A DNA stretch of 64,000 nt, from assembly GCF_000970305.1 (NCBI RefSeq), contig NZ_CP009517.1, forward strand, positions 2,542,001 through 2,606,000. Direction: 5' to 3'. This DNA comes from Methanosarcina barkeri 3 (GTDB lineage: Archaea > Halobacteriota > Methanosarcinia > Methanosarcinales > Methanosarcinaceae). The stretch's first letter is position 1. Each line of letters begins with the position of its first letter. Below are positions 202 to 54,663 of the stretch, piece after piece. The notes under the pieces are model-generated. The model was given only the letters and a program-made list of their open reading frames with translations, had not been told where the DNA came from and made no database searches. The translations under genes were made by a program, and so were the position numbers.

Positions 202-307
202 GCGTGAAAATGAAGGCTGGATTTCCAGCTTTCTTATTCTTTTTTCTTTCTTTCTTTTTATTGTTATATAGCAAAACTTAAATATCGATACTTACCTCCC
301 CTTGAAC

Positions 308-943
308 ATGTATATTCCTTACGAATTTCTAGGAAAAATATTCACATATCTGGTTCTTTTTGCTCTTGCAGGAACAGGGATCGCTCTGCTCTTAGGGGCA
401 TATTCCTTTAAAAAACGCAGGATAATCTTTCCGGGGTTCGTGCTGTTTACTCTTTATCTTTTCTATTCTCCTTCAAAATTATTGTGCAGATTTTTTAGAA
501 TCAGGGAAAATCTTGTGGATGATATTCTTATAGATTTAAGAAATGCCTTAATGTTGGATCGCTTTGTTCACACAAAAAAGAACAGGGTTGTGTTCCTTCC
601 TCAGTGTATGAGACACCCGGAATGCAGGGCAAGGTGTGACCCCATTCATGGTTATGAATGCAAACGTTGTGGGAAATGTGATATTTCAAAGATATATGAG
701 GCTGCAGATAGGTACAATTTCAAGGTTTTTATAATTCCTGGAAGTAGCTTTGTAAAAAAAATCTTTAAAGAATACAGGCCTCAATCTTGCCTGGGTGTAG
801 CCTGTTACAATGAGCTTGCAGAAGATATGCAGGAAGTATCTTTTATCCCTGTTCAGGGCGTTCTTCTCCTTCGGGATGGTTGTTTCAATACCAAAGCTGA
901 TGTAGAAGAAATTATCCGAAAAATGGAGATGTGTAATGTATAG
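308..943 (+). CDS. DUF116 family membrane protein, first copy
   Basis: A protein of about 211 residues. Two hydrophobic segments occupy roughly residues 14-34 and 38-58, and a cytosolic domain follows. That domain has a dense cysteine cluster (CMRHPEC, CDP, CKRCGKC, about residues 100-128) and later cysteines in SCLGVAC and DGCFNT. This is the DUF116 (PF01976) layout; the family's biochemical role is unknown to me. The cysteines suggest metal or Fe-S binding. I prefer ATG at 308, but an in-frame TTG at 302 is possible; neither has a clear Shine-Dalgarno site. A TATA-like sequence near 262-270 suggests a short leader. The stop overlaps the start of the next DUF116 gene by 8 bp, so the two are probably translated together. 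Confidence 0.8.
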   Translation: MYIPYEFLGKIFTYLVLFALAGTGIALLLGAYSFKKRRIIFPGFVLFTLYLFYSPSKLLCRFFRIRENLVDDILIDLRNALMLDRFVHTKKNRVVFLPQCMRHPECRARCDPIHGYECKRCGKCDISKIYEAADRYNFKVFIIPGSSFVKKIFKEYRPQSCLGVACYNELAEDMQEVSFIPVQGVLLLRDGCFNTKADVEEIIRKMEMCNV

Positions 944-49821: not shown

Positions 49822-51576
49822 TCATATATTCATTTTTTTGAAAACTTGTTTAAGCCTGGAGTATGGATAGGTGTTTACAACGTCTTCTTTTTCCAACCAG
49901 CCTCGACGCGCCTGTCCTAGGCCGTATCGCATGTAGGTTAGGTCGGAAACGGCATGGCTGTCTGTAGATATACAGAACTTCAGGCCAAAGGTCTTTGCAC
50001 GCAGGATAAGCTCGTCATTAAGGTCAAGCCTTGAAGGCTGGCTGTTGATCTCCATTATTTTTCCATTTTCAGCGGCAACTTCAAAAACCTTTTCAAAATT
50101 AACGGCATAAGCCTCTCTTTTCCCAAGCAGTCTTCCTGAGGGATGTGCAAGGATATCGAGATATTCGTTTTCCAGAGCTGTGACAATCCTTTCGGTCATT
50201 CTCTTTTCAGGAAATGCAAAACCGGAATGCACAGCTCCTACCACAACATCAAGTTTTTTGAGAATTTCATCCGGATAATCAAGGCTTCCATCTTTCAGGA
50301 TATCTACCTCAGATCCTTTGAGAATCTTTATCTTGAAATTTTTTGAGAGCTTATCAATTTCTTTCCATTGAACTTTCAATTCTTCAACTTCCATACCATT
50401 TGCAACTTTCTGAGAACGGGAGTGATCGGTTACTGCGATATACTCATAACCAAGAGCTTCTGCTTTTTCAATCATGGTTTTAAGGGTGTCTTTTCCTTCA
50501 CTGTATTCCGTATGCATATGGAGATCTCCTCTGAGATCACCTGCTTCTACCAGTTTGGGCAGGGTATTTCTTGCAGCGGCTTTAATTTCTCCCCGGTTTT
50601 CTCGAAGTTCGGGTGGGATATAGGCAAGACCAAGTCTTTCATAAATCTCTTCTTCGCTGCTTCCTGCAATCTGTTTATCGGATCCTTTTAAGTACAGCCC
50701 GTATTCCGAAAGTTTGTAACCGTTTTTGATGGCAACATTTCTAAGTTCTATGTTGTGCTCCTTTGAACCTGTAAAGTACTGAAGAGCTGCTCCGTAACTT
50801 TCAGGTGGGACTACTCTCAGGTCAATAACTGTTCCTTCTCGCAGAATTACGCTGCTTTTTGTGCTGCCTTTTAAGATAACCTGTTCGACGTCCGGAAGGG
50901 AAACAAAACAATCCATTACCTTCAAAGCCTCTTCTTTTTCAGCTTCTGCCAGGATGTCTATGTCCCCAATTGTTTCCTTCAACCGTCGGAGTGAGCCTGT
51001 GTATATTATTTTCGAGAGGTCGACTTTAGAGGTTCTGCTTTCACACCGGGATTTTAACGCAGATATAATTTCATCTGCTAGTGGAAGTGCTTTTCCTAAA
51101 GCTATCCTGGCATGGCTTTTCTCATACTGCTCAATTGCCTTTGCAAGATTCTCTTCGCTTTTTTCTCCGAATCCTTCGAGCCTCCTGAGCCTGTGGGCAC
51201 GAATAGCGTCTTTAAGATCTGAAAGCGTTTTTACATCAAGGGTATCGGAAAGCTTTTTTATTTTCTTTGACCCAAGTCCTCGAATTTCCATAAGTTCTGG
51301 AGTACCTGAAGGTGCTTTTTCTTTAAGCTTTTCAAATTTTTCCACCTTGCCTGTTTCCAGATACTCAGCAATATGGTCAGCAATTGACTCCCCAATGCCT
51401 GGGATTTCGGTCAGTCCGGCTTTTCCTTCTCTGGAATAGATTTTTTCGATGTCTTCACCATGGTTTTCTATCATTTGAGCAGCTTTACGATAAGCTCGTG
51501 GTTTCCACTCAACCTGCTGGTATTCCAGAATGTCAGCAGCCTCATAAAATAGCTCGGCAATCTCTCGATTTCTCAA
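49822..51576 (-). CDS. polX: Family X DNA polymerase with PHP domain (PolX)
   Basis: A 584-residue repair polymerase. Residues 1-160 hold helix-hairpin-helix repeats (TEIPGIGESIADHIAEYL; EIRGLGSKKIKKLS). A nucleotidyltransferase domain follows, with YTGSLRRLKETIGDIDIL near residue 192 and the third Asp near VIDLRVV. The C-terminal 240 residues are a PHP exonuclease domain: DLHMHTEYSEGKDT, AVTDHSRSQ, VVGAVHSGF, LAHPSGR and STDSHAV. The full set of metal ligands seems present, so gap-filling synthesis and 3'-5' exonuclease are both expected. DNA ligase lies just upstream on the same strand, consistent with base-excision repair. Confidence 0.9.
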   Translation of the reverse strand: MRNREIAELFYEAADILEYQQVEWKPRAYRKAAQMIENHGEDIEKIYSREGKAGLTEIPGIGESIADHIAEYLETGKVEKFEKLKEKAPSGTPELMEIRGLGSKKIKKLSDTLDVKTLSDLKDAIRAHRLRRLEGFGEKSEENLAKAIEQYEKSHARIALGKALPLADEIISALKSRCESRTSKVDLSKIIYTGSLRRLKETIGDIDILAEAEKEEALKVMDCFVSLPDVEQVILKGSTKSSVILREGTVIDLRVVPPESYGAALQYFTGSKEHNIELRNVAIKNGYKLSEYGLYLKGSDKQIAGSSEEEIYERLGLAYIPPELRENRGEIKAAARNTLPKLVEAGDLRGDLHMHTEYSEGKDTLKTMIEKAEALGYEYIAVTDHSRSQKVANGMEVEELKVQWKEIDKLSKNFKIKILKGSEVDILKDGSLDYPDEILKKLDVVVGAVHSGFAFPEKRMTERIVTALENEYLDILAHPSGRLLGKREAYAVNFEKVFEVAAENGKIMEINSQPSRLDLNDELILRAKTFGLKFCISTDSHAVSDLTYMRYGLGQARRGWLEKEDVVNTYPYSRLKQVFKKMNI

Positions 51577-51790: not shown

Positions 51791-53539
51791 TCAAATGCCT
51801 TTGTCTTCCTTAAAATTCCAGACTTCTTTAACTGTGGTGATCTCATAAGGTCCTTTGTCGTATCTTATGCGTAAAAAACGAGGAAAACGAAGAGCAAGTC
51901 CGGTATCTCCTTCTCCCTGTCCGGCAGTATGGCCTATACTTTCCGTAATTTCCGAACCAAGAACTTCAATAACCAGAGCAGGCTCTACAAAAATATCAGG
52001 AAGCATTCTACTTTTTATGAATACATTTTTAGGGACTTCGGCAATAACATGCTCTGAAAGCAAGTTGTCTATTTCTTTTGCATCCGCTTCTGTGAAGCCT
52101 GTCCCTACTTTTGTAAAAGTTTCAAAACGGTGTCTCTTTTCATTTAGAACTGCACAGAGGAGGGCTCCAAATGAACCTTTTCTTTTTCCTCGTCCATAAT
52201 ATTTCCCTACAATCACAAGGTCAAAGGTTTCTCTCATCCCGCTGGCATACTCTTCTTTCCATTTAAGCCAGAGCCAGCTCCTTTTTCCGGCTTCGTAAAT
52301 CGAATTTCCATCCATGGATTTAATTATAACTCCTTCAAGCCTTTTTTCCAGAGCCTTGTTGAAAAAGTCCTCGATTTCTTCAAGATTATTCGTAACAGTT
52401 CTTTTAGCCAGGCGAAGCGTTCTTGACTCCCTTAAATGTTCCTCAAGGAGAGTTCTTCTTTCCGGGTATGATTTATTCAGGAGTGAATTTCCTTCCAGAT
52501 AGAGAATATCGAAAAAGAATACAGCAACAGGGTAGATTTCAGTGTATTTTTGGACCTCATACTTTCTGCGTCTCTTCATCAGTTTCTGAAATGAATAAAA
52601 TTCTTCTGAAGAGTCATCTGCTTTCCTGTTTTCAACGTATGCGATAATTTCCCCATCAAGCACGATCTTCTCCGCAAGAATGCCTTTCCTGACCGCTTCC
52701 ACAATATCGGGATATTGCGCAGTTATATCTTCAAGCCTCCGAGAAAAAGCTGTAATCTCTTTTCCGTTTTTATGAATCTGAACTCTTTCTCCATCGTATT
52801 TTTCTTCGGCTGCTTTTTTTCCGGGTATTCTTTCTTCAAGCTCTTCAAAAGTTTTCACACGCTGCGCAAGCATTGACCTGACAGGCCGTCCGAGTTTTAT
52901 GGAGAAACGCCCAAGAGCTTTCGGACCATATTCCGCAAGGGATTCTGCAAGCTCTCCTATATCGGTACAGACGCTATAGCTTTCTTTGATCCTGGAAGCA
53001 TATTTTTTATCCCCTGTAAAAGCAATAGAAAATGCTTCAAGCAAAAATTGGTCCCCAAACCCAAGCCTGAGTTTTCCCAGTACAATCCTGACTATGTATT
53101 TTCCTTCTTTGGGGCTAGCTCGCTGCAGGATACTGGAAAGCAGCTCGGTCTTTTCCTCCTGACTTCCTTTTCCTGTGGCTTTTTTTATCTCTTTTAGCCT
53201 TCCGAACACTTCATCAATTGCCAGTAACTTCCCTTCTCCCATGTTTAATTCAAACGCTACATCGCCAAGGTCTCCTATCCTTGAATATCTTCTTTTAACA
53301 TCTTCTTCGGAAACTCCGTATGCCCAGGCAATAGCTTTTAAAGCGAGTTTATCCCCTATCCCCAGCGCTGTATTTTCAAAGGCAGGTCCTATACTCCCCA
53401 GAAAAAGGTATGCACTATCCTTTACTTCCTTTCCTTCCAATCCCTAAAAAAAATTAGCAATTTTCTGGATGATTTCCTTATGGGATGTTGTTTTTTCAAG
53501 TTCCTCAAAAAGCTCCGCAAGCTCCATGAATCGAGCCAT
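51791..53539 (-). CDS. lig: ATP-dependent DNA ligase, frame interrupted by an in-frame TAG at codon 32
   Basis: Archaeal ATP-dependent DNA ligase that seals nicks in replication and repair. The core frame from 53440 has motif I EEKYDGERV with the AMP-accepting lysine, motif III FFDILYLEG, motif IV LEGVIIKS, and motif V LWLKWK. Homologues start earlier. Upstream, ATG 53539 with GGGGAGAGG just before it opens MARFMELAELFEELEKTTSH then KEIIQKIANFF, then TAG (53446-53444), then G and the rest of the ligase in the same frame. This restores the usual N-terminal helical domain and moves the AMP lysine to residue 247, close to other archaeal ligases. In Methanosarcina, TAG can be read as pyrrolysine. 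Otherwise a truncated start at TTG 53440 or a recent nonsense mutation. Confidence 0.8.
53444..53446 (-). other. In-frame amber codon in the ligase gene (candidate pyrrolysine site)
   Basis: TAG follows a run of T residues (TTTTTTTT on the coding strand). The frame is unbroken on both sides, so a one-base indel is not needed to explain it. Homologues are expected to have a charged residue, often Lys, at this position; AAG to TAG would be a single change. Confidence 0.6.
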
Positions 53540-53708
53540 TATCCTCTCCCCGAAAAAAACGCTTTGAAATTTTGAAATTTTTCTCTTTACTATAATTCAA
53601 TTATTCAATTTGCAGGTCTTTATCGCTTTGCATCCTCAAATTTCAGAAATAGAGTTTTTCCTCTTTTTTCCATAAAACAACTATCTCTGCCGTTCCTTCT
53701 TCATTACC

Positions 53709-53722: not shown

Positions 53723-53769
53723 CTAAAAGATGCATGAGAGGAATACACATCACTTCTGCACATCTTCAT

Positions 53770-53841
53770 GCGACTGTGGTTTAGTGGCTATGACCTGAGC
53801 TTCCCAAGCTTAGAACCCGGGTTCGAATCCCGGCAGTCGCA
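53770..53841 (+). tRNA. tRNA-Gly, anticodon CCC
   Basis: A 72-nt cloverleaf. Acceptor GCGACTG pairs with CAGTCGC, discriminator A. Anticodon stem TGAGC/GCTTA with loop TTCCCAA, anticodon CCC. T-arm CCGGG-TTCGAAT-CCCGG is perfect. CCA is not encoded. Confidence 0.93.
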
Positions 53842-54663
53842 TTGAAAAATCATTGAGACTAAGTCGTTTTTAAATTAAGCTTTTTAAATTAAATTTTTTT
53901 AAATTAAATTTTTTTAAATTTAAAATTATTATTTTGGTAAATAATTATAGATATATCATTAGATCCTATATTTTTTTATGAACTGCCCAAAATGTAATAG
54001 TTCCACTCACAATTGGAGAAGTGATGATAGATCACTGGAGGGCATATGCAGAAAAGGTACGCAATTCACTATATGGTTTAACGATATCGGAATATAAAGC
54101 CACTAGTTGACTTAACAAAGACGGTTATTTGATAGCCAGCAGTCTTTGCTTGTAGGCATGAGTACTCTTATTGTCTATTCGACTAAGTTTTAGGTTTCTT
54201 CAACTCTCTCCAGCCATCTTTTCTTCTATATATGTAACATACAAAATCAATGAGATATGCAGTTAATTAGGAGCCATCGTAGAACAAAATTATTAACAGG
54301 TTTCTACTGGATGCTTTAATTTTCAAGATCATTATTACCAATTAAAAATTAACTTTATGAAAAGTTTGCCTAATCTATTCTGTGACAATTATTTAGTATA
54401 ATATTCTGGGTTAACTATGATTCAGTACCCACATCTTGTTATATATCGTAGCTTTTTTTGAGTTTATTTGAGATCTTAGAAATTTTACCTCTGTATTCTT
54501 GCAGTAGAAACTCTTCAGTTTCCGAACTTTTCCGGTCGATAAAGCCAACTTTTCTCATAACTATAAATTAAATTTTATACATGTAAGAATTAAAAGGAAA
54601 GTCTTAACTATAATATATAATACTTGATAATTGAAGTTAAATTTATGATTTTAAAAAATTGAG
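53842..54663. other. AT-rich intergenic region after tRNA-Gly
   Basis: About 820 bp. A short zinc-ribbon-like frame (53978-54097) is listed separately. The remaining sequence has no credible gene. The DNA next to a tRNA gene would be a typical integration site, but no integrase or duplicated tRNA-Gly 3' end was found. Confidence 0.35.
53978..54097 (+). CDS. 39-residue zinc-ribbon-like ORF, perhaps a transposase fragment
   Basis: MNCPKCNSSTHNWRSDD then RSLEGICRKGTQFTIWFND, ending in TAA. A CPKC pair is followed by a single Cys 23 residues later. The start resembles N-terminal zinc-binding domains of IS1-like and similar transposases, which suggests a fragment. No Shine-Dalgarno site is obvious. 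Confidence 0.3.
   Translation: MNCPKCNSSTHNWRSDDRSLEGICRKGTQFTIWFNDIGI

Follow-up and report, generated by a model that had tools for sequence, protein, structure and literature searches.

The ligase-polX locus

The window analysed here, a stretch of 64,000 nucleotides from the genome of Methanosarcina barkeri 3, carries on its reverse strand a 582-codon gene (positions 51791–53539) for an accessory ATP-dependent DNA ligase. The frame begins with an ATG (53537–53539), ends with a TGA (51791–51793) and contains a single internal stop, a TAG at codon 32 (53444–53446, reverse strand), which is very probably read as pyrrolysine. A sequence resembling a ribosome-binding site, GGGGAGAGG (53543–53551, reverse strand), lies three bases upstream of the ATG, and a similar G/A-rich stretch precedes the start codon in 10/10 TAG-bearing orthologues. 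Codons 1–31 (53447–53539, reverse strand) correspond to the N-terminal part of the DNA-binding domain, and a TTG, considered below as an alternative start, occurs at codon 34 (53438–53440, reverse strand). The catalytic lysine K247 (AAA, 52799–52801, reverse strand) is invariant and is embedded in KYDGER, which we take to be nucleotidyltransferase motif I. The positions originally predicted for the ATG, GGGGAGAGG, the TAG, the TTG at 53440, the TGA and the AMP-binding lysine are all correct. The downstream neighbor of the ligase is polX (49822–51576, reverse strand), encoding a family X DNA polymerase with a PHP domain, while the upstream neighbor is a divergently oriented gene for tRNA-Gly(CCC) (53769–53842, forward strand).

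The domain analysis of the conceptual product identified PF04675, PF01068 and PF04679, i.e. the DNA-binding, nucleotidyltransferase and OB domains, all above the cut-off. Residues 3–575 match the archaeal ATP-dependent ligases, and the comparison of folds identified the Sulfolobus enzyme (2hiv in the PDB) as the best match; the same fold and the same range of residues are shared with the ligases of Pyrococcus (2cfm) and Archaeoglobus (3gde). Unlike these three proteins, the window ligase has a putative pyrrolysine codon at the end of its second helix and is an accessory paralogue encoded beside polX. If the TAG is read through, the match to DNA_ligase_A_N (PF04675) begins at profile position 2 instead of 44 and scores 147.4 rather than 116.7 bits. 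The 31 residues preceding the TAG are a genuine ligase N-terminus, as the original prediction had it. No other frame joined across a TAG in the whole window runs for more than 223 codons past it, and the TAG-interrupted ligase frame is no chance product, because it is unique in the window, because readthrough extends the N-terminal profile match and because the TAG recurs in 10 species. TAG terminates only one of the 40 long frames of the window (302–943, forward strand), and this frame stays open for 26 further codons afterwards.

Conservation of the TAG at codon 32

Alignment with related ligases, suggested earlier as a check, revealed a TAG at codon 32 in 10 of the 16 Methanosarcina species with a readable orthologue, and six different sense codons (TTA, GGG, GAG, AGG, AGC and AAG) in the others. 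The TAG-bearing orthologues, which include those of M. spelaei MC-15 and Methanosarcina sp. MSH10X1, group together in a single clade with a support of 100 (nucleotide tree) or 88 (protein tree). Every sampled species of this clade with a readable gene, ten in all, carries the TAG. Four decayed copies of the ligase from the same clade have it as well. In the sister lineage of the clade (G101) codon 32 is ambiguous due to a one-base gap in a run of T. The ligase, polX, the second ligase and Thg1 all look split in this assembly (L048, L067), and since genes other than the ligase are affected, the splits are likely to be indel errors of the assembly rather than true pseudogenes.

Another explanation of the in-frame stop, a nonsense mutation or a sequencing error in a young pseudogene, could draw on the fact that outright pseudogenes of the ligase occur often in Methanosarcina and that one of the ten TAG-bearing genes (L008) is frameshifted close to its C-terminus, in the vicinity of codon 527. 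However, the TAG is common to ten species represented by separate assemblies, which already contradicts this explanation, and internal TAA or TGA codons are never seen in the intact copies, where TAG alone precedes the true stop. Together with purifying selection on both sides of the TAG (dN/dS 0.11–0.16), these observations make the nonsense mutation, listed among the original alternatives, highly improbable.

Two further TAG codons were seen in ligase homologs. Codon 139, which is CAG or CAA (Gln) in all the other Methanosarcina, is a further TAG in the ligase of G076 (L004) and adds to the case for readthrough. A homolog from another genus of the family (L023, G056) reads ATG TAG TCA where its relatives read ATG GAG TCA; the frame of this homolog is disrupted close to the C-terminus.

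Translation through the TAG

The constraint on the coding sequence was compared along the ten TAG-bearing genes. The dN/dS ratio is 0.134 for codons 1–31, 0.156 for codons 33–95, 0.112 for codons 96–245 and 0.140 for codons 246–580, and the pattern of differences over the three codon positions is alike before and after the TAG. The first start codon conserved past the TAG is that of M223, just ahead of the catalytic K247. The shared constraint and the lack of a conserved start before M223 indicate that the parts before and after the TAG are selected as one product.

These results bear directly on the possibility that translation stops at the TAG and the active ligase is made by reinitiation downstream, at the TTG at 53440 or later. 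In M. barkeri 3 the TTG is located two codons past the TAG and the annotation-style frame 51791–53440 is open; initiation at this TTG had been listed as an alternative. This codon, however, is TTG in only six of the ten TAG-bearing genes and CTT or CTG in the remaining four, and the TTG start was rejected as not conserved; initiation at M223 would cost the protein its entire DNA-binding domain, and codons 1–31 are constrained as a part of the protein. Reinitiation is thus very unlikely. Even less credible is ribosomal slippage or bypass at the T-run, by which the TAG would be passed without tRNA-Pyl. M. barkeri 3 does have eight T before AGG, and the run had been pointed out at the outset as a feature to be checked, but it is broken in five loci (L005, L006, L007, L008, L032) that keep the TAG, and the frame after the TAG is the same as the frame before it. 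Slippage was rejected on the grounds that the run is not conserved, and we consider it extremely improbable.

The decoding machinery

The genome of M. barkeri 3 encodes tRNA-Pyl(CUA), PylS, PylB, PylC and PylD in one cluster, and, as a positive control, the search recovered its three mtmB genes with one TAG apiece. PylS was identified above the cut-off in 27 of the 31 genomes of the genus; one TAG-bearing genome (G104), which is 75% complete, has no such match, a point against decoding as pyrrolysine. The pylB gene itself (L057:9002-10117, G000) has a TAG at codon 351 followed by a TAA at codon 372; this TAG is situated at the very end of pylB.

Conservation of the TAG, coding constraint on both of its sides and the presence of the pyl genes, all read from the genomes themselves, argue that the TAG very probably encodes pyrrolysine rather than serving as a stop. 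The original prediction, according to which an essential enzyme may depend on pyrrolysine at position 32 or tolerate it, is therefore borne out as far as the very probable readthrough is concerned, but not in its assumption of an essential enzyme.

No PYLIS-like stem-loop was found past the ligase TAG, with fold z-scores ranging from -1.3 to +2.1 among seven TAG-bearing genes. A PYLIS-like structure at this site was rejected, as the downstream sequence has no stable or conserved RNA structure, which fits the reported finding that the PYLIS-like element is not essential (PMC2933860). A context-free UAG is read as pyrrolysine with an efficiency of about 20–30% in M. acetivorans (PMC2933860), so most initiations on the ligase may yield only a peptide of 31 residues.

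The ligase as an accessory enzyme

The genome of M. barkeri 3 contains a second ligase (G000:C1:1824029-1825702), about 37% identical to the first one and without internal stops, and this TAG-free paralogue is present across the Methanosarcina genomes searched. The polX gene adjoins the window ligase at every orthologous locus checked, including those in other genera of the family, and both genes are absent from several Methanosarcina. The genus-wide occurrence of the TAG-free paralogue and the frequent decay or absence of the window ligase mark the latter as an accessory, dispensable enzyme; its role in DNA repair is inferred from the pairing with polX. The claim that the ligase is essential, rejected in view of the second ligase, thus finds no support in the sampled Methanosarcina.

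In five genomes the ligase is truncated to its first 100–127 codons, and the remnant lies 28–113 bases before a full-length polX (G073, L043; G055, L047; G096, L045; G040, L046; G092, L044). Judging from these loci, polX was retained while the ligase was lost, apparently more than once. The polX of G055 has a TAG inside the match.

Tolerance of the TAG or selection for it

The best explanation of these data, to which we assign a probability of about 0.8, is that the window ligase is an accessory enzyme of a lig-polX pair with a clade-conserved, mostly neutral pyrrolysine at codon 32. The gene would encode a full-length accessory ATP-dependent ligase, with tRNA-Pyl(CUA) competing with the release factor at the UAG, so that termination would give the 31-residue peptide and decoding the 582-residue enzyme. 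A single origin is envisaged for the TAG, in the common ancestor of the TAG-bearing clade and at a helix end of the DNA-binding domain where the residue is free to vary. Its persistence would be due mainly to the tolerance of pyrrolysine at position 32 and to the dispensability of the ligase. As a likely by-product, decoding of the UAG would cap the level of the ligase and tie it to the supply of pyrrolysine.

The properties of position 32 are consistent with tolerance. The six TAG-free species have L, G, E, R, S and K at this position, and it is the only one among 578 columns with six residues among these species. In the predicted structural model (mean pLDDT 83, with an uncertain arrangement of the domains) residue 32 is placed in the last turn of helix 20–32 of the DNA-binding domain and is likely to be exposed.

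The alternative is that selection keeps the TAG, either because pyrrolysine aids the enzyme or because the UAG couples the synthesis of the ligase to the pyrrolysine supply. It is favored by the lack of a single reversion in ten readable and four decayed copies of a codon that varies elsewhere in the genus, across the 1.70 substitutions per fourfold site that the clade comprises. Under the fitted rates, the probability that a neutral TAG would remain unchanged is 0.03; it becomes 0.09 if Trp is taken to be unacceptable at this position and 0.21 if both Trp and Tyr are. Retention of the TAG is thus weakly unlikely under neutrality (P about 0.03–0.2) and some selection for it is possible, but the absence of reversions was dropped as a proof of selection. 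Moreover, the four decayed copies kept the TAG without selection, which suggests that chance readily preserves it; of 16 other columns of similar variability, 4 likewise do not vary within the TAG clade; no conserved RNA structure follows the TAG; and residue 32 lies a long way from the catalytic lysine along the sequence and, in the model, ends a helix. On the other hand, in Thg1, the known case, the TAG is reported for one species only (PMC2933860), in which respect the conserved ligase TAG speaks for selection. Taken together, the probability of retention, the decayed copies and the invariant columns make the evidence for selection weak, and tolerance of pyrrolysine is favored over a need for it; we infer near-neutrality from the same data and regard a selected TAG as unlikely. 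From the neutrality estimate there is no compelling ground for favoring regulation via the TAG, and the more specific proposal, that UAG 32 is a selected supply sensor by which repair capacity would track the pyrrolysine status in the whole clade, is more doubtful still. If it were true, the synthesis of a DNA-repair ligase would be tied to the availability of pyrrolysine.

Comparison with known pyrrolysine proteins

Few pyrrolysine proteins are found outside methylamine metabolism, and most of them are known from one species. The methyltransferases MtmB, MtbB and MttB resemble the ligase in that their in-frame TAG, decoded as pyrrolysine, is conserved between species. In these proteins, however, pyrrolysine takes part in catalysis and typifies the family, whereas position 32 of the ligase varies outside the clade and is remote in sequence from the catalytic residue. 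Other candidate amber-containing genes include those for a TetR regulator (PMC1914089), transposases (PMC2933860), the citrate synthase of Methanohalophilus mahii (PMC3017947) and 16 proteins of 'Ca. Methanomethylophilus alvus' (PMC4153887). Like the ligase, they have an in-frame TAG outside methylamine use and are mostly unproven; each of them is known from one to three species (PMC1914089, PMC2933860, PMC3017947, PMC4153887), while the ligase TAG is clade-wide. None of these four papers mentions an amber-containing DNA ligase in its main text.

No report of a pyrrolysine-containing ligase was found in the open literature. A paper from 2025 reportedly describes archaea in which every TAG is read as pyrrolysine and could list the gene of the window ligase. 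Earlier screens had few Methanosarcina genomes at their disposal, three of them complete at that time. With M. acetivorans presumably having GGG at codon 32 of the ligase and the M. mazei genomes presumably lacking the gene, a screen that demanded conservation in at least two species would have missed the ligase. This demand was made in one of the earlier screens (PMC1914089).

Standard gene calling removes 33 residues of the ligase, which is a fault of annotation. The species with the TAG, those with sense codons and the decayed copies together form a natural series in which neutral and selected pyrrolysine could be told apart.

The closest case, in our best reading, is Thg1, the tRNA-His guanylyltransferase of M. 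acetivorans, which is reported to be translated with pyrrolysine although the residue is unnecessary for its activity (PMC2933860). Both Thg1 and the ligase are ordinary enzymes of pyl-bearing Methanosarcina, with one in-frame TAG and homologs that have a sense codon instead. They differ in that the protein has been demonstrated for Thg1, while that of the ligase is predicted, and in that the Thg1 TAG has been reported for M. acetivorans only (PMC2933860), the ligase TAG being the more widespread with its ten species. We confirmed the Thg1 TAG in a genome of 5.75 Mb (G084), where it limits the frame to 144 codons; among the full-domain Thg1 matches of the genus, this is the only one cut short at that point.
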